Origin: Planomonospora sp. ID67723
Lineage (GTDB): Bacteria > Actinomycetota > Actinomycetes > Streptosporangiales > Streptosporangiaceae
DNA length: 64,000 nt
Direction of reading: 5' to 3'
NCBI RefSeq assembly: GCF_015711605.1
Contig: NZ_JABTEZ010000001.1
Coordinates: forward strand, 524,001 to 588,000
Under the pieces are notes generated by a model. It saw nothing but the letters and a program-made list of their open reading frames with translations. It had not been told where the DNA came from and ran no database searches. Position 1 is the stretch's first letter, and each line of letters starts with the position of its first letter. Made by a program: the position numbers and the translations under genes. Below are positions 7,883 to 52,451 of this stretch, piece after piece.

Positions 7883-7934
7883 CAATCCGAACTGCCACTC
7901 TTGTCTCACACCGAAAACGACGGAGGAGAGCACG

Positions 7935-8387
7935 ATGAGCGGCACCGAAAGCAACACGTACGAGGGGTTCACGGCCGAGGAGCGGGCCGCGATGAAGGAG
8001 CACGCCCAGGAGCAGAAGAAGGCGGCGCGCCGCGGCTCGCGGGCGGACAAGGCGGCGGAGGCGGAGCGGGACGTGCTCGCGAAGATCGCCGAGATGCAGG
8101 GCCCCGACCGGATCCTGGCCGAGCGCGTCCACGCCATCGTCACGGCCAACGCCCCGGTCCTCGCACCGAAGCTCTGGTACGGGATGCCCGCCTACGCGCT
8201 GGACGGCAAGGTCGTCTGCTTCTTCCAGAGCGCGGAGAAGTTCAAGGCGCGCTACGCGACACTCGGGTTCAACGACCTGGCGAAGCTGGACGAGGGCACG
8301 ATGTGGCCGACCGCTTTCGCCCTGACCGAGGTGACGGCCGAGGCGGAGGAGCGGATCACCGCGCTGGTGAAGCAGGCGGTGAGCTGA
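7935..8387 (+). CDS. DUF1801 family protein
   Basis: A 150-residue soluble protein of the DUF1801 (YdhG-like, structurally frataxin-related) family, recognised by [19 protein letters not shown] followed by [11 protein letters not shown] and the closing MWPTAFAL block. The first 55 residues are a charged Lys/Glu/Ala-rich helix that extends the domain. Members are sometimes annotated as iron chaperones, but the biochemical role is not established. A GGAGGAG site precedes the ATG. It stands alone behind a copy of the SARP box found 18 kb away, so I infer it belongs to that regulator's regulon. Confidence 0.8.
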
Positions 8388-8457
8388 GGCGCCGTCCGGC
8401 GTGGGTTGTCCCGCACCCGGGGGAGCACCTTGCAGCGCTCTTCCTCCGGCACGGTGG

Positions 8458-9369
8458 TCAGGCGGCGGGCCGCGTGGCGACGGAGACGTAGTCGACCAGC
8501 ATCGGGCGCCCGGAGACGGTGGCCGGGGTGGGGCCCCCGCCGAAGGCCCCGGGCAGGCCGCCGCCCACGGCGACGTTGAGGATCAGGAAGAACCCGTGGC
8601 CGGTGGCCTTCTTCCAGGTGACGGGGTCCATGCGGGTGGCCTCGACGGTGAACACCGGCGTGTCGTCGAGGTACCAGCGGACGGCGGTCTCGGTGATCTC
8701 GACGGTGTAGCGGTGGAAGGAGCCGTGGCAGTCCGGGCAGGGGCGCTCGCCGGACGACAGGCCGGACGGTTCGGCGCAGGGCCCGCCCGGCATGACGCCG
8801 CAGTGCATGGCGGCCAGCACCGAGGGGCGCCCGTTGACGGCCTCCATGATGTCGATCTCGCCCACGCCGGGCCAGCCGGTGTAGCCGTCGCGCAGCGGGG
8901 CGCCCAGCATCCAGAACGCCGGCCAGTAACCGGCGCCGTCGTCCGGGCCCACGTCGGGCAGCATGATCCGTGCCTCGACCCGGAGCGTGCCGCCGGGCGG
9001 CGGCCGGAAGTCGGCGCGGCGGGTCTCGACCCGGCCGGACGTCCAGGAGCCGTCGCGCAGCAGCGGGGTGATGGCCAGGCTGCCCCGGCCGTCGAGGGCG
9101 ACGTTGTCGGTGGAGGCGGTCATCGTCTCGATCTCGCCGGTGCCCCACTGGGGGGCGGGGCAGCCGGGATAGCAGGTGCCGACGTCGTGCAGCCAGGTTC
9201 CGGGCAGCGGCGTCCCGGCCGGGCCGGTGAAGTCGTCGCGGAACACCTCGCTCCACCCGTCCCGGCCCGCTCCGGCCGTCTCCCCCTCCCGGCCCGGCCC
9301 CGAGCACCCGGCCAGGAGGAGGAGCGACGCCAGCGCCACCGCGAGCACGCGTCTCACGGCGCCGTTCAC
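8458..9369 (-). CDS. GH16 glycoside hydrolase lipoprotein
   Basis: A 303-residue lipoprotein carrying a family 16 glycoside hydrolase domain, which acts on beta-1,3/1,4-glucans, galactans or related chains. The GTG start gives a signal peptide ending in the lipobox LAGC (Cys22). The active-site block EIDIME is at residues 171-176, with Glu171 as the expected nucleophile and Glu176 as acid/base. The start overlaps the stop of the acyltransferase gene (GTGA), so the two are translationally coupled. Linked to a polymer synthase and an acyltransferase, it probably trims or remodels the polymer made by this cassette outside the membrane; substrate is inferred, not shown. Confidence 0.87.
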   Translation of the reverse strand: MNGAVRRVLAVALASLLLLAGCSGPGREGETAGAGRDGWSEVFRDDFTGPAGTPLPGTWLHDVGTCYPGCPAPQWGTGEIETMTASTDNVALDGRGSLAITPLLRDGSWTSGRVETRRADFRPPPGGTLRVEARIMLPDVGPDDGAGYWPAFWMLGAPLRDGYTGWPGVGEIDIMEAVNGRPSVLAAMHCGVMPGGPCAEPSGLSSGERPCPDCHGSFHRYTVEITETAVRWYLDDTPVFTVEATRMDPVTWKKATGHGFFLILNVAVGGGLPGAFGGGPTPATVSGRPMLVDYVSVATRPAA

Positions 9370-43911: not shown

Positions 43912-45255
43912 TCACCCGCCGGTCGGGGCGCTCCGCGGCCGTTCCCCCGCGGACTCCGCCACTCCGATGACGGCCTCCAGCAACCTCTCGTCGTCGGCTT
44001 CCGGGACGGCCCGCAGGTCGAGCAGGCAACGGCCGCGCTCGACCCGGCCGAGGACCGGAGGTTCCCCCCGGCGGAGGGGCGCGGCCAAGCCCTCGTCGAG
44101 GGCGACGGCGGCGCTCCGCAGGGAGACCTCCGGCGCTCCCCCGCCGCCGACCACGCCCAGGCTGTCGACCGCCGTGGCGTCGATCCCCCTGTCGCACAGC
44201 CGTGCCGCCAGCTTCTCGGCCCGCCCGCGCAATGCCGCCGGGTCGGCGTGCAGCGCCTCCCGGGTGGGCGTGTCGGGTCCGCCGACCGTGGCCTCCAGCG
44301 CGGCCAGGGTGGTCTTGTCCACACGCAGCGCCCGCGCCAGCGGGTGGCGGCGCAACCGCTCGACGAGATCCGCGCGGCCGAAGAGCAGCCCGCTCTGCGG
44401 GCCGCCGAGCAGCTTGTCCCCGCTGGTGGTGACCAGGTCGGCGCCCTGTCGCAGCCATGTGGTCACGTCGGGCTCCTCGGGCAGCAGCGGCTCGGGACGC
44501 AACAGCCCGGATCCGGCGTCGGCCACGAGAGGGACGCCGCGCTCCCGGCACAACACCGCCAGCTCGGTGACCGGAACGGCCGAGGTGAATCCCCGGACCT
44601 GGTAGTTGGACGGGTGGACCTTCAGCACCATCCCGGTCTCGGGACCGATCGCCGCCGCGTAGTCGCGGGTGACGCTGCGGTTGGTCGTGCCGACCTCCCG
44701 CAGCCGCGCCCCGGTGGAGACCAGCAGCTCGGGGAGCCGGAAGCCGTCACCGATTTCGATGAGCTCGCCCCGGCTGATGACGACCTCCCGCCCCGAGGCG
44801 AGTGCCGTGGCCGCCAGGATGAGGGCCGCGGCGTTGTTGTTCACCACGTGCACGCCCTCGGCCTCGGGTACGGCGGCGGCCAGCGCGGCGAGAGCCGTAC
44901 GCCCCCGCCTGCCGCGGGAACCCGTGGCGAGGTCGAACTCGATGTCGGTGACCCCGGCGGCCAGCTCCATCGCCTGGCGGGCCGCGGCCGACAGCGGGGC
45001 CCGCCCCAGGTTGGTGTGGAGCAGCACGCCCGTGGCATTGATCACCGGCCGCAGCCCGGCGGCGCTCGCCGGCAACGCGGCCAGCACGGCCGTCATGATC
45101 TCCCCAGGGGTGATCTCCCCCTCCCTGGCGCGCCGCTGCGCGGCGATGATCATGCCCTTGACCCGTTCCGTCCCCAGCCGCAGCCGCGCCTCGCCCAGCC
45201 GTGGATCGGCGAGCAGGACGTCCGTGCGCGGGATCGAACGGCGATGATCCGTCAT
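43912..45255 (-). CDS. selA: L-seryl-tRNA(Sec) selenium transferase
   Basis: A 447-residue PLP-dependent enzyme that converts seryl-tRNA(Sec) to selenocysteinyl-tRNA(Sec) using selenophosphate. Family blocks are present: VINATGVLLHTNLGRAPLS, VVNNNAAALIL, LKVHPSNYQVRGF and the PLP-lysine site TTSGDKLLGGPQSG. It implies that the organism decodes UGA as selenocysteine. selB, selD and the tRNA gene selC are often close to selA, but none is visible in the window; the 393-nt divergent region shows no tRNA-like sequence. Confidence 0.92.
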   Translation of the reverse strand: MTDHRRSIPRTDVLLADPRLGEARLRLGTERVKGMIIAAQRRAREGEITPGEIMTAVLAALPASAAGLRPVINATGVLLHTNLGRAPLSAAARQAMELAAGVTDIEFDLATGSRGRRGRTALAALAAAVPEAEGVHVVNNNAAALILAATALASGREVVISRGELIEIGDGFRLPELLVSTGARLREVGTTNRSVTRDYAAAIGPETGMVLKVHPSNYQVRGFTSAVPVTELAVLCRERGVPLVADAGSGLLRPEPLLPEEPDVTTWLRQGADLVTTSGDKLLGGPQSGLLFGRADLVERLRRHPLARALRVDKTTLAALEATVGGPDTPTREALHADPAALRGRAEKLAARLCDRGIDATAVDSLGVVGGGGAPEVSLRSAAVALDEGLAAPLRRGEPPVLGRVERGRCLLDLRAVPEADDERLLEAVIGVAESAGERPRSAPTGG

Positions 45256-48001: not shown

Positions 48002-49252
48002 ATGACGAACCCGCAGCAGGGCGTGGAGATCCGCCCGTTCCGCATCGACATCCCCCAGGCCCAGCTCGACGACCTGAGCGCTCGGCTGGCGAACACCCGC
48101 TGGCCGGACGAGCTTCCGGGGGTCGGCTGGAGCCGGGGTGTGCCGGTGGGATACCTGAAGGAGCTCGCCGAATACTGGCGCACCGGCTACGACTGGCGGA
48201 CCCACGAGGCGGCGATCAACGAGCATCCGCAGTACGTCGCCGCCGTCGACGGGCAGGACATCCACTTCCTGCACGTGCGCTCACCCGAGCCCGACGCCGT
48301 CGCGCTGCTGCTGTTGCACGGCTGGCCGGGCGGGGTCGTGGACTTCCTCGACGTCATCGGGCCGCTGTCGGATCCCCGCGCGCACGGCGGGGACCCGGCC
48401 ACCGCCTTCCACCTGGTGATCCCGTCGTTGCCGGGATTCGGGTTCTCCACCCCGCTGGCCGGGCCGGGCATGGGCCCCGCCCGCATGGCCGGGCTGTTCG
48501 CACGGCTGATGGCCCGGCTCGGCTACGGCAGGTACGGCGTGCAGGGCTATGACACCGGCTCATGGGTCGCCCCCGAAATCGGCAGGCAGGCCCCCGACCA
48601 TGTCATCGGCGTCCACATGAACGGCATGATCACCTTCCCTGTCGGCGCGGAAGGCGAGATGGACGGCCTCACCGAGACCGAGCAGCGGCGCTGGCAGGCG
48701 ATGCAGAACTTCAACGACGGCTACCTGCAGTGCAACTCCAAACGCCCGCAGACGGTGGCGTACGGCCTGCACGACTCCCCGGTCGGCCAGCTCGCCTGGA
48801 TCGTCGAGAAGTTCAAGGAGCTCACCGACCCCGAAGACGGTCTCCCCGAGGACAGCGTCGACCGCGACCGCATCCTCACCGACGTCTCGATCTACTGGCT
48901 CACCGGCACGGCCGGATCGGCGGCGCAGGTGTACTACGAGGAGATCTCCGCCAGCGCCTGGAGCGGGACCGCCGACCAGTGGAGCGACGGCTCCGGTGAC
49001 GGCGCCGGCTGGGGCGGGGGCACAGACGGCGGCGCGGGCGACTGGACGGGCGACTGGGCGGTGGCTCAGCGCGGGACGGTGCCGACCGGTGCGCTGGTCT
49101 CCGCCCACGACGTGACCATCCGCCGATGGGCCGAGCGCGACCACAACATCGTGCACTGGACCGAACTCGGCGAGGGCGGGCACTTCCTCTCGATGGAGGC
49201 GCCGGACCTGCTGGTCGGCGACGTTCGCGAGTTCTTCGGCAAGCTGCGCTGA
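48002..49252 (+). CDS. Epoxide hydrolase (EHN + alpha/beta hydrolase)
   Basis: A 416-residue alpha/beta hydrolase with an amino-terminal epoxide-hydrolase (EHN) domain (residues 8-115: [28 protein letters not shown]). The catalytic Asp is in QGYDTGSW, the oxyanion block is HGWPG, and the His is in GGHFLSME; this set gives water addition to epoxides. Between about residues 320 and 355 lies a Gly/Asp/Trp-rich low-complexity insertion ([20 protein letters not shown]) not usual in the family. Divergent from the WYL regulator, which probably controls it. Confidence 0.88.
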
Positions 49253-49334: not shown

Positions 49335-51320
49335 TCAGAGCAGCAGGTCTTCGGGACGGGCGAGCTCGCGGGGCGAGGATGCGATCTCCAGCCGTTCGAG
49401 CGGGTCGGCCTCGATGTGCGGATCGAGGCGCAGGCCGGTGAGGTTGGCGATGCTCCGTACGGGGACCTGGAACGTCCGGTAGGCGCCGTAGGAGAACGAC
49501 TCCTCGGTGGGCAGTTCGTCGATCAGGGCGGCCTGGCTGAGGAGGTAGCCGGTCACGGACAGGGCGCCGGACTCCTTGACCATCGCGATGATCTTCCAGA
49601 ACTGGCGCGGCAGCTGGACACCGCGATAGGTGTCGTCGTCGTCGGCCAGAACCGGCCCGGTGAACACGCTGACGGCCAGGTCGTGGGTGTCGGCGTTGTT
49701 CAGCACGTAGTCCTCCAGCCCGAGCCACAAGGTCTGGCCCGCGTTGAAGGCGTGGTGCTGGGGCGTGGAGTTGGTGAAGTGGAAGGTGTCGTCGTTGGCC
49801 GCCCTGGCCTGGACGTCGGTCGTGCCCCAGGCGGGGTCGAGGCGGCGCACCAGGTGCCCGCGGTCCAGGTCGTTGTCGCGGTAGACGGCCTCGCCGGTCT
49901 GCTCCTCGGCCGGTATCCGCGGGTCGAAGATCCAGCGGTCGCTCTCCCGCCTCGGGCGCTGGGAGAGCTTCCCGTCGATGTTGCAGGCGGTGAACAGCGC
50001 GAGCCGCCGCTGACGGTGCATGACGACGCTGAAGTGGTGGTAGCGCAGTTCGGCGGAGGCGACCGCGGCCAGTTCGGGTGACGGGACGGGCAACGGAAGC
50101 GGATGGGCCAGGAACGCCGGGTCGTAGCCTCCGCGCCCGGCGTAGTCGGGGTCGATCGCGGCCGCCTCGGTCGTCACCGGGGCCGGGCTTTCGAGCCGGA
50201 CCGTGACCTCCAGCGGGACCGAGATCGTGATCTCGCCGTCCCGCGCGGGCCGGGAGCCCGTCACGGCGAAGGCCGCCGGCGCCGCGCCGTCCGGGGACGG
50301 GGGCGCCACCGGGGACACCAGCGGGGACGTCACCGGGGACACCGACGGGGGCAGGGCGGGGGTCACGAGCTCGGTCCGCCCGGAGACGAAGAGCTGGTCG
50401 GCGAGCGCGCGCTGCGCCGGCGGCAGGGACGCCCCGCGCACGAACAGGCAGATCCGGCTGATCCGGATCCCCTCGTTGACGAACTTCCCGAAGCCGTCGT
50501 CGGCCACCGGCACGGCCGCGTGATGGAGCGCGACGATCTCCCACTGGTCGTTGAACACCGGCGAGCCGGACGATCCCGGTTCGGTGTCGGCCACGTAGTG
50601 CAGGAACCGGTCGAGGATGTCGACGACCCGGTTCTCGCGGAGAGCCACCTGCTTCTTCTCCCCGCGCGGGTGCTGCACGATCGTGACGAACTCGCCGACG
50701 ATCGCCTTGCCCTCGGACTCGATCAGCCGGTTGAACCCGAGCACCGCCAGCTCGGCGACCGGTGCGCGGACGGCGACCAGGGCGAAGTCGAGCTCGTCGT
50801 CGGCCAGGAAGAACCGGTCCGGATCGAGCGGGTGCACCATGGTGCTCAGCGGCCTGCCGTCGATCCCGTCCTGGTAGTTGAACTCGATCAGGCTGTTGCG
50901 GGCCGTGTCGGCGTCGGGCAGCACGTGGTGGTTGGTCAGCAGCAGCACCGGGGACACCAGCGACCCGGTGCCGAAGCCCGCCAGCCGTCCATGGCCGTCG
51001 CGGATGTTCACCCGCCCCACGGCACGTGCCGCGGCCACTCCGGCATCGAGGTAGCGCACACCCACGAAGTCCGCGGTGTTGATGATCTTCTCGAGCTGCG
51101 CGTCCGCTCCGGGCGCGTCGCGTTCGATCAGGTCGCTGTCGCCGTAGAACCGGCTGAGCCGGTCGATGCGTTTGCCGATCCGCTCCTGGGTGTCCGCGGC
51201 GGCCAGACCACCCGGCAACGCGAGCATCGACTCGTGCTCGTGCCGTTTCGCGGCACGCTCCGCCACCCGCCGCGCAGCCGTCTCGGTCTGCCGCTCCTCC
51301 AACAGCTCGATGGACTTCAT
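49335..51320 (-). CDS. Trypsin-like serine protease fused to NUC1 endonuclease
   Basis: A 661-residue two-enzyme protein without signal peptide. Residues 1-60 are a charged helix. Residues 85-310 are a trypsin-like protease with a full triad: His132 (TNHHVL), Asp178 (LDFALV) and Ser251 (GSSGSP). A linker rich in Pro/Val/Ser (320-360) leads to a DNA/RNA non-specific endonuclease domain (about 425-640) with the DRGH motif (486-489, His489 catalytic), the metal-binding asparagine region TNSTPQHHAFN (516-526) and Glu536. Both sites look intact. A GAGGGG site fixes the ATG at 51320. Fused proteases and nucleases of this type are associated with bacterial conflict systems, but its trigger and targets are unknown. 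Confidence 0.88.
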   Translation of the reverse strand: MKSIELLEERQTETAARRVAERAAKRHEHESMLALPGGLAAADTQERIGKRIDRLSRFYGDSDLIERDAPGADAQLEKIINTADFVGVRYLDAGVAAARAVGRVNIRDGHGRLAGFGTGSLVSPVLLLTNHHVLPDADTARNSLIEFNYQDGIDGRPLSTMVHPLDPDRFFLADDELDFALVAVRAPVAELAVLGFNRLIESEGKAIVGEFVTIVQHPRGEKKQVALRENRVVDILDRFLHYVADTEPGSSGSPVFNDQWEIVALHHAAVPVADDGFGKFVNEGIRISRICLFVRGASLPPAQRALADQLFVSGRTELVTPALPPSVSPVTSPLVSPVAPPSPDGAAPAAFAVTGSRPARDGEITISVPLEVTVRLESPAPVTTEAAAIDPDYAGRGGYDPAFLAHPLPLPVPSPELAAVASAELRYHHFSVVMHRQRRLALFTACNIDGKLSQRPRRESDRWIFDPRIPAEEQTGEAVYRDNDLDRGHLVRRLDPAWGTTDVQARAANDDTFHFTNSTPQHHAFNAGQTLWLGLEDYVLNNADTHDLAVSVFTGPVLADDDDTYRGVQLPRQFWKIIAMVKESGALSVTGYLLSQAALIDELPTEESFSYGAYRTFQVPVRSIANLTGLRLDPHIEADPLERLEIASSPRELARPEDLLL

Positions 51321-51674
51321 CGCGCCGCCCCCCTCTTCTCGTCCCCGCACGCCGCCGACGGCCCCGTCCGGGGCATCACGCCTCCTGCGCACGGCTGCCG
51401 AGGAATCGTGGATCTCATGCCGGCGGCGCCCACCCGCGAGATCTCCCGTGGCGTCTGCACCGACGGCGCGGGGTCGATGGGCCGCGTCCGGAAGCTTGCC
51501 GAGCTCCTCGGACACGACGGGCTGTTCACTCCAATGCCCGAACGACACCTATATCGCTCATACCAGCACTGGATTCACAAAAATCCCTTAATCCTGCAAT
51601 AGCTTCCTTATCAGCACAAAAGCTAATGGAATGGCGAAACAGGACCGGAGGGTCGGCGCCGTACGCCGGTCTCC
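51321..51674. other. Upstream region of the protease-nuclease gene, AT-rich half
   Basis: 354 bases without a supported gene. The part at 51540-51640 is markedly AT-rich compared with the window and probably holds the promoter of the protease-nuclease gene; no clear hexamer pair could be fixed. A 60-codon plus-strand frame here was judged non-coding. Confidence 0.4.
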
Positions 51675-52451
51675 TCAGTCGGTGAACAGCTCGCGCCTGC
51701 GGAACGGGGCGAGGGCGAAGCGGACCGCGGCTCCGGCCGGGGTGAGCCGGCGCACGTGGGCGCCGTTGCGGGCGCGGGTGATCGCCCGCTCGGCCAGCCA
51801 GGGGGCGACGGTCTCGACCCGGTCGGCCAGGATGTTGAAGACCTTCTTGGCCTTCTCCAGCTCCTCGGGGCTGTAGCCGCGGGTGAGCAGGTCGGTGACC
51901 ACCATGCCGGGGCTGAGCAGCCCGACCGAGACCCCGGGCGGCACCTCCTCGGCCAGGGAGCGGGTCAGGTGGGTGAGCGCCCGCTTGCTCGCGCCGTACA
52001 CGCTGAGCCCCGGCACCGTACGGCCGTCGCTGCCGAGCCCTTCCATGTTCCACAGGTGGCCGCTCCCCTGGGCGACCATGCCCGCCAGGGCGACCGCGGA
52101 GCCGTTGAGAGCGCCGAGGAGGTTCACCTCCACGACCGACCGGGCCTGTCCGGCGGGGAGCCGCCACAGCGGGGCGCGGCTGTGGGAGACGCCGGCGTTG
52201 TTGATCCAGATGTCGACCCGGCCGTAGCGCTCGACGGCGGCGTCCCACAACGACTGGACCTGGGCGCGGTCGGTGACGTCGGCGACCATCGCCAGGACGT
52301 CGAGTTCGGCGGCCGCCTCACGCACCGAGCCGGCCCGGCTGCCGCACAGCGCCACCCGGTGGCCGCGTGCCAGGAAGGACCGGACCAGCCCGAGGCCGAT
52401 GCCCCGGGAGCCGCCGGTCACCACGATCGTCTTCACAGGGACCGTCTTCAC
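51675..52451 (-). CDS. Short-chain dehydrogenase/reductase
   Basis: A 258-residue SDR oxidoreductase with the NAD(P) site TGGSRGIGLG near residue 13, the NNAG motif, and the catalytic YGASK (Tyr-x-x-x-Lys) motif. The usual Ser preceding the Tyr by 12-14 residues is not clear: the segment reads LWNMEGLGSDG. Substrate unknown. The GTG start follows GGAGG at ten bases; the first codons are duplicated (15-bp unit) so a second GTG lies 15 nt further in. It follows the MarR gene after about 65 nt in the same direction, so the two may be cotranscribed. Confidence 0.85.
   Translation of the reverse strand: MKTVPVKTIVVTGGSRGIGLGLVRSFLARGHRVALCGSRAGSVREAAAELDVLAMVADVTDRAQVQSLWDAAVERYGRVDIWINNAGVSHSRAPLWRLPAGQARSVVEVNLLGALNGSAVALAGMVAQGSGHLWNMEGLGSDGRTVPGLSVYGASKRALTHLTRSLAEEVPPGVSVGLLSPGMVVTDLLTRGYSPEELEKAKKVFNILADRVETVAPWLAERAITRARNGAHVRRLTPAGAAVRFALAPFRRRELFTD

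Follow-up and report, generated by a model that had tools for sequence, protein, structure and literature searches.

A protease–nuclease fusion gene of Planomonospora as a candidate latent, protease-gated cell-death effector

The genome of Planomonospora sp. ID67723 encodes, within a stretch of 64,000 nucleotides (contig NZ_JABTEZ010000001.1, positions 524001 to 588000; hereafter the window), a single polypeptide in which a trypsin-like protease domain is joined to a nuclease domain of the Endonuclease_NS/NUC1 type. A first-pass annotation had placed this gene at positions 49335 to 51320 and had read it as a cytoplasmic, possibly suicidal conflict effector with two intact catalytic sites. The coordinates proved to be exact: translation of the plus strand runs into a stop, and the minus strand, which is the coding strand, yields a frame of 661 residues. 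An in-frame 5' extension to a GTG at 51548 (737 amino acids) is possible; against this longer start stands the ATG at 51320, which matches the ATG starts called in the relatives from Planomonospora venezuelensis (locus L002) and Planobispora rosea (L003). In agreement with the first-pass annotation, inspection by eye reveals no signal peptide, and the N-terminus, MKSIELLEERQTETAARR, is modelled as a charged helix. In an AlphaFold2 (AF2) model of the protein (mean predicted local distance difference test, pLDDT, 79.6; predicted template modelling score, pTM, 0.52), an N-terminal helical region is followed by the protease fold, a disordered linker and the nuclease fold. The helical region, in which Glu77 is invariant in a 50-row alignment, is a candidate dimerisation or regulatory part.

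Relatives were collected by a contig scan with six peptide patterns, which confirmed 156 stretches; the best 80 of these gave 79 loci. Most of them belong to Actinomycetota, others to Cyanobacteriota, Planctomycetota, Acidobacteriota, Bacillota and Bacteroidota. Together with the window protein, 76 of the 79 entered a 77-row alignment, L066, L068 and L079 being excluded with translated stretches of less than 560 residues. Each residue of the triad His132/Asp178/Ser251, as well as the DRGH histidine His489, is located where the first-pass annotation had put it and is invariant in all 77 rows; the four residues lie outside all six search patterns.

The protease domain is matched by Pfam Trypsin_2 (E 1.7e-24), and its closest solved sequences are the staphylococcal glutamyl endopeptidase V8 and the Spl proteases (PDB 1wcz, 2vid). 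Searches of the window protein against NCBIfam and PADLOC returned weak matches only, namely HtrA (0.07) in the former and the proteases RT-Protease XI (2e-4), PDC-S45 (0.006) and LmuA (0.008) in the latter. The best fold matches of the modelled domain are FAM111A, HtrA/DegS and V8 proteases, with the ranking among these S1 protease folds lying within ties. Near Ser251, Thr246 and His266 are likewise invariant (77/77) and align with the pocket residues of the V8 and Spl proteases; presumably, they line a predicted Glu/Gln pocket. Triad and pocket Thr/His, the marks of a V8-like S1 glutamyl endopeptidase, are both present in the window protein, and the protease is hence predicted to be V8-like with a Glu/Gln-type pocket. 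V8 and Spl proteases are secreted, in contrast to the window protease with its lack of an evident signal peptide.

The nuclease domain gives a Pfam Endonuclease_NS match with an E-value of 7.5e-49, and EndoG is its nearest solved sequence. In addition to His489, Asn526 and Glu536 are invariant (50/50 rows of the 50-row alignment), so that the DRGH histidine, the Asn and the Glu that characterize NUC1 enzymes all occur in the window protein. By comparison with Serratia nuclease, the Asn and Glu have metal-binding roles. EndoG/CPS-6 and Serratia nuclease, as well as the FAM111A protease domain, have the fold alone in common with the window protein.

Between both enzymes lies a linker whose Pro-rich and disordered character had been noted before and is borne out by the low pLDDT values (Table 1). 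It contains a partly conserved strand, xxPLExTV, at residues 363–375, and the region 300–388 ranges from 21 to 169 amino acids across the aligned rows. A glutamate eight positions before the conserved Tyr393, corresponding to Glu385 of the window protein, is found in 63 of the 77 rows and in 16 of 18 representatives picked at 60% identity, including most representatives from Actinomycetota, Cyanobacteriota, Acidobacteriota and Planctomycetota; Glu overall accounts for 7.0% of linker residues. At positions −9 to −20 before Tyr393, no residue is common to more than four of the 18 representatives, and between 5 and 59 residues past the protease residue Gly284, Glu reaches half of them at no position. 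Glu385 marks the onset of conservation at the nuclease border and lies within the disordered segment 367–386 of the model. From this pattern, we propose Glu385 as a self-cleavage site of the protease: a V8-type pocket in all rows and one conserved border Glu are what self-cleavage would need.

Table 1. Features of the window (window positions) and of protease/hydrolase-like fusions in related loci (locus positions).
Feature	Positions	Strand	Basis or remark
Protease/nuclease fusion gene (Trypsin-like + Endonuclease_NS/NUC1)	49335..51320	minus	661 aa; open reading frame (ORF), Pfam, AF2 model
N-terminal helical region, residues 1-84	51069..51320	minus	AF2 helices 2-21, 23-33, 45-59, 72-81
V8-like trypsin domain, residues 85-300	50421..51068	minus	Pfam Trypsin_2; sequence matches to V8/Spl/glutamyl endopeptidase structures; fold matches
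His132 codon, catalytic	50925..50927	minus	77/77 aligned rows
Asp178 codon, catalytic	50787..50789	minus	77/77 aligned rows
Ser251 codon, catalytic	50568..50570	minus	77/77 aligned rows
Disordered Pro/Ala-rich linker, residues 316-389	50154..50375	minus	pLDDT <50 at 316-361 and 367-386
Glu385 codon, proposed self-cleavage site (P1)	50166..50168	minus	Conservation
Endonuclease_NS/NUC1 domain, residues 393-661	49338..50144	minus	Pfam; fold matches EndoG/CPS-6 and Serratia nuclease
DRGH motif, residues 486-489, catalytic His489	49854..49865	minus	His489 in 77/77 rows
Local A+T-rich stretch, probably ordinary intergenic DNA	51521..51640		Base composition; sigma-70-like promoter not found
Epoxide hydrolase gene	48002-49252		Pfam; downstream of and convergent to the fusion gene
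Short-chain dehydrogenase/reductase (SDR) gene	51675-52451	minus	Pfam; upstream of the fusion gene, 354 bases between
Protease/hydrolase-like fusion, L088	6715-9090
Protease/hydrolase-like fusion, L089	6577-8820
Protease/hydrolase-like fusion, L090	7077-9131
Protease/hydrolase-like fusion, L091	about 7900-8700		tblastn alone
Protease/hydrolase-like fusion, L092	5847-7889
Protease/hydrolase-like fusion, L093	6745-9045
Protease/hydrolase-like fusion, L099	6469-8760

On all the evidence, the chances are about even that the window gene encodes a latent, protease-gated intracellular two-enzyme effector of cell death. The fusion protein would rest as a zymogen until a trigger, either dimerisation via the helical N-terminus or cleavage by a partner peptidase such as M43, S8 or CHAT, renders the protease active. 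The active protease would then cut its own linker after Glu385, and perhaps other targets too, whereupon the freed NUC1 domain could degrade DNA and RNA. As a result, the cell would die or stop growing, which may limit the spread of phages or, alternatively, serve developmental lysis.

Candidate partners come from the neighbourhoods of the relatives. Script-called genes were clustered and their representatives used for tblastn, with counts taken within 6 kb of the fusion at the 79 loci, some of which have short flanks. M43 peptidases and a small, lipocalin-like protein were each found at 15 loci, S8 peptidases at 11, M28 peptidases and LCAT-like proteins at six each, CHAT parts and ATPase-S8 parts at five each, Tle1-like phospholipases at three, and a metallo-β-lactamase (MBL) protein and hydrolase kin at one each. 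At least one partner type occurs at 29 loci and a second peptidase (M43, S8, M28 or CHAT) at 27, while a partner match lies at most 150 bp from the fusion match at 14 loci. The gene order is M43–small protein–fusion in Actinocorallia and LCAT–CHAT-ATPase–fusion–M43 in Rhodococcus koreensis, where the small domain is fused to M43. Fusion, M43, small protein, M28 and S8 form a single run in Aldersonia (L024), and at four Arthrobacter/Pseudarthrobacter loci a gap of 93–95 bp separates the end of the S8 match from the fusion match that follows. One protein each of the M43, S8, M28 and LCAT types was read by eye, and none has an evident signal peptide. The lipocalin-like small protein is possibly an inhibitor of the M43 peptidase. 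In Mycobacterium (L018, 12356-15881), S8, Tle1-like phospholipases and the MBL protein adjoin the fusion; the latter matches LmuA (1.8e-42), RTasMBL (2e-26) and Avs1a (4e-25), names associated with the gated pro-nucleases described by Tuck et al.

Other settings were seen in single loci. A Rhodococcus locus (L011, 6903-9860) encodes upstream of the fusion a protein of 985 amino acids with CHAT, ATPase and S8-like domains, which could be a sensor or switch. On a Rhizobium leguminosarum plasmid (L108, 4179-12504), genes annotated as phospholipase D-like, S1/P1 nuclease, fusion, hypothetical and CHAT follow one another, and on two cyanobacterial plasmids the fusion has genes in its vicinity that are annotated as metalloproteases of the M57 and matrixin families (L111, 930-1838; L116, 9403-10182).

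In a quick tree of the 77 rows, which comes with long-branch warnings, linkage to M43 is confined to a 30-row clade that contains the window gene. Over 63 rows (the window row and the 62 with flanks of 5 kb to either side), seven changes are needed for M43 linkage and six for S8 linkage. In a sample of 200 genomes of the order, the M43 type is present in 14 and co-occurs with the fusion in five (chance 0.0005, kinship uncorrected). Both genes lie within 6 kb of each other in three of these five, for which random placement gives about 3e-8; leaving out one of two congeners raises this to 1e-5. The S8 type was found in one of 296 genomes of a phylum sample at 1e-60.

The fusion family itself is patchily distributed. 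Within the order sample, the full-length fusion occurs in 12 of 200 genomes and any match at 1e-40 in 26, and a match at 1e-80 was obtained for two of the 296 genomes of the phylum sample; both searches score just the best few candidates per genome. Among plasmid records, 93 gave a match at 1e-20, 17 of them with a single match region spanning 80% or more of the query, and 47 of the 93 come from Rhizobium, Sinorhizobium, Bradyrhizobium, Mesorhizobium or Agrobacterium.

The architecture also varies in its effector part. At seven loci (L088–L093 and L099), the same type of protease half is joined to a C-terminal hydrolase-like domain. Its assignment as an α/β hydrolase is based on a [GSA]HSLG motif in the six that were read and on sub-cut-off Pfam matches in L092, one of four scanned. 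L088 carries in addition M43 and the small gene, and S8 adjoins the L099 fusion. Kin of the hydrolase-like domain are encoded beside the fusion gene as a 294-amino-acid frame in L104 and a 298-residue match in L050. Furthermore, L094–L097 encode a NUC1-type nuclease without a Pfam trypsin match; by eye, the part in front of it reads as another, different trypsin-like domain, marked by a GDSGS-type motif and followed by a short linker (the L095 frame starts inside this domain), which looks like a second kind of protease–NUC1 fusion. Conceivably, the window protein is a self-gated single-chain pro-nuclease in which a disposable linker with a scissile Glu385 connects a Glu protease of V8 type to the NUC1 domain, and which lies at the heart of a modular death programme of several enzymes, with exchangeable activators and co-effectors (M43 with the lipocalin-like barrel and M28, S8, CHAT-ATPase, lipases) and a nuclease swappable for a lipase. 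This fuller version is tentative, and we would sooner doubt than adopt it in all its parts.

The fusion gene is present in a single copy in the Planomonospora genome. It is flanked by genes for an epoxide hydrolase and an SDR (Table 1); beyond the latter, upstream, a MarR-like gene and a mod operon were recognised by reading ORF translations. No consensus promoter or terminator was found for the fusion gene, which is probably monocistronic. The order of mod block and fusion is kept in P. venezuelensis (L002) and P. rosea (L003), and the mod block is absent from the 10 kb examined in Planobispora longispora (L051). Since its place near the mod operon is kept in a congener and in P. rosea, the gene is not a recent insert and was probably maintained vertically. 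An upstream region deviating from the genome average by its A+T content, as remarked in the first-pass annotation, dwindles to a dip of about 120 bases (40–53% G+C in 40-base blocks), and the upstream regions of three relatives contain single 40-base G+C dips at most. With a dip this short and a normal G+C content of the gene itself (70.5% vs 71.7% for the window), the remark is uninformative on origin and was not counted as evidence. Elsewhere in the same genome, on another contig (C2, about 293 kb; L084), an operon of M43, the lipocalin-like small protein and M28 occurs without a fusion. A SelB-like gene adjoins this operon (L084, 6175-7914), and a SelA-like gene was read in the window at 43912-45255; no link of this SelA/SelB type was seen in the other loci examined.

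Several observations weigh against protease-gated cell death. As regards the locus, the neighbourhood of the window gene resembles ordinary metabolism, no sensor gene is evident nearby, and tblastn at 1e-4 detected no kin of M43, S8, M28, CHAT or LCAT in the 64-kb window. The proposed role in conflict is supported in part, by two intact enzymes, a proposed effector family, the disordered linker and the candidate site Glu385, and left without support by the surroundings. Comparing the neighbours of homologues, a check suggested along with the first-pass annotation, brought up peptidases, lipases and once a Lamassu/Avs1-type nuclease, yet 50 of the 79 relatives have none of the partners sought within 6 kb. 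Moreover, the partner seeds were drawn from the very loci in which they were then counted, so that these counts are descriptive and no independent test. Likewise, the three genomes with fusion and M43 in proximity are, by coordinates, L003, L006 and L051, where the linkage had been seen earlier, and hence do not provide independent confirmation.

The proposed cleavage site faces objections of its own. Glu385 is lacking in 14 of the 77 rows, including representatives of Bacteroidota (L069) and Bacillota (L072), as well as in the R. leguminosarum plasmid protein, and it may be conserved merely as the N-terminal edge of the nuclease, given that the residues following it are conserved, too. Two natural variants point in opposite directions. 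One is Mesorhizobium L110, whose unit is annotated as a protease frame that overlaps a nuclease frame; the border between them coincides with the site of Glu385, which speaks for the proposal, and the protease frame stops shortly past a xxPLxxT strand. Yet this two-frame unit retains the Glu, and separate halves therefore need not lose the site. The other is Aldersonia kunmingensis (L079), where a nuclease frame near S8 has neither a protease part nor a Glu at the corresponding position; it starts 14 residues before Tyr393 if the first ATG is used, with a start 26 codons earlier being possible, and may be a truncated fusion. Finally, SplB, which prefers Gln, has both pocket residues in the alignment, and a Glu-type pocket thus leaves the specificity unfixed.

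The main warning comes from LypC of Caulobacter crescentus, the nearest studied architecture, in which Ser296 of the protease is required for lysis in gene transfer agent (GTA) release, while the nuclease residues His471 and Asn505 are dispensable (PMC13236601). Accordingly, the protease may be the decisive part. The window protein could then be a LypC-like signalling protease that cleaves further proteins within a cascade towards lysis or death, with the nuclease as an accessory for nucleic-acid clean-up or stability. In line with the latter, LypC without its nuclease part is an unstable protein (PMC13236601), and similar protease halves are found joined to another effector-like domain. However, His489 is invariant in all rows, including those of Bacteroidota, and this invariance, together with that of Asn526 and Glu536, suggests selection on nuclease activity. 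On balance, a pure signalling role appears unlikely, though it has to be taken seriously.

An effector that is delivered or secreted, as cargo of a contractile injection system or as an exported protein acting on competitors or as a digestive enzyme, would be suggested by a few unusual settings. In genome G054 (L102, 2076-8206), a hydrolase-like gene (sub-cut-off Pfam) comes after the fusion, and next are genes for a contractile tail sheath and, by reading, a tube, possibly an injection system; in two Cupriavidus plasmids the fusion gene sits inside a type II secretion operon, flanked by gspF and gspG (L112, 6755-8860; L113, 5755-7881). Yet, neither the window protein nor that of L112 has an evident signal peptide, sheath and tube kin were found at one locus only of those examined, and ORF reading revealed no delivery genes near the window copy, all of which renders delivery improbable. 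No more convincing is housekeeping or developmental turnover of nucleic acids and protein without a role in conflict, since the metabolic neighbours, the normal G+C content and the place near the mod operon in L002 and L003 (albeit not within the 10 kb of L051) are opposed by the patchy distribution in both genome samples, the 93 plasmid records and the peptidase linkage in 27 of 79 relatives.

Under protease-gated cell death, the reading that we favour, the window protein can be compared with several described systems. Its architecture is already known from three sources, all considered here as far as their accessible text goes. A survey from 2008 lists the same Tryp-Endonuclease_NS arrangement for one Fusobacterium protein, without gene context (PMC2605481). 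Kaur et al. predicted in 2020 a conflict system ('System 3', NucA-trypsin) that is defined by a trypsin-like peptidase and Endonuclease_NS, fused or adjacent, is mostly found in alphaproteobacteria and is coupled to S8 peptidases, with transmembrane (TM), EAD1 or STAND parts in some cases; a proteolytic cascade was proposed to deploy the nuclease (PMC7159879). The window protein unites both domains in one chain and, over residues 52–648, is 35% identical (E 1e-99) to the protein from an R. leguminosarum plasmid, a relative with a CHAT gene two genes on that may be one of the authors' own cases. Further peptidases nearby, which System 3 does not have in every case, are lacking in the 64-kb window, and no Pfam match to TM, EAD1 or STAND parts was obtained for the window protein (presence of an EAD1 model in the Pfam set being unconfirmed). 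Unlike System 3 as described, the window gene is actinobacterial and some of its relatives adjoin M43, lipocalin-like, M28, LCAT and CHAT-ATPase genes.

By description, the third source, LypC of the LypABC system, resembles the window protein in domain order, in its size of about 660 amino acids and in being encoded away from known immunity genes. It consists of an N-terminal trypsin-like domain, a flexible linker and a C-terminal NucA-type nuclease (amino acids 354–662); its partners are a CARD-protease and an NLR-like ATPase, and lypABC becomes toxic when overproduced (PMC13236601). No such partners are evident near the window gene, based on Pfam for the two flanking genes and on ORF reading for the rest.

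A mechanistic parallel is offered by Hachiman, Avs, Lamassu, DRT and Canu, in which trypsin- or caspase-like proteases activate latent MBL nucleases by cutting disordered gates. These cuts are site-specific after Ile (a conserved Gly is proposed in Canu), and oligomerisation was required for activation in the tested case (PMC12799240). In contrast to these separate proteins with an MBL nuclease, the window protein is one chain, its nuclease is an Endonuclease_NS domain of NUC1 fold, and the predicted cut follows Glu. Protease-activated nucleases have recently been shown in bacterial immunity for multi-protein systems. If the proposal holds true, a one-chain version with a single predicted cut site would make the cascade of Kaur et al. 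testable by one gene and one point mutation and would connect bacterial death programmes with EndoG- and FAM111A-shaped enzymes. S8 coupling was already reported by these authors (PMC7159879), and the linked M43, M28, S8 and CHAT genes point to a cascade that may extend beyond what has been described. What is added here to the known architecture, and was not found described in the accessible text of the literature, are the invariant V8 pocket with the border Glu, the linkages to M43/lipocalin-like/M28 and CHAT-LCAT genes, and the hydrolase-swapped fusions, alongside the S8 linkages in Actinomycetota, where the other linkages likewise occur.

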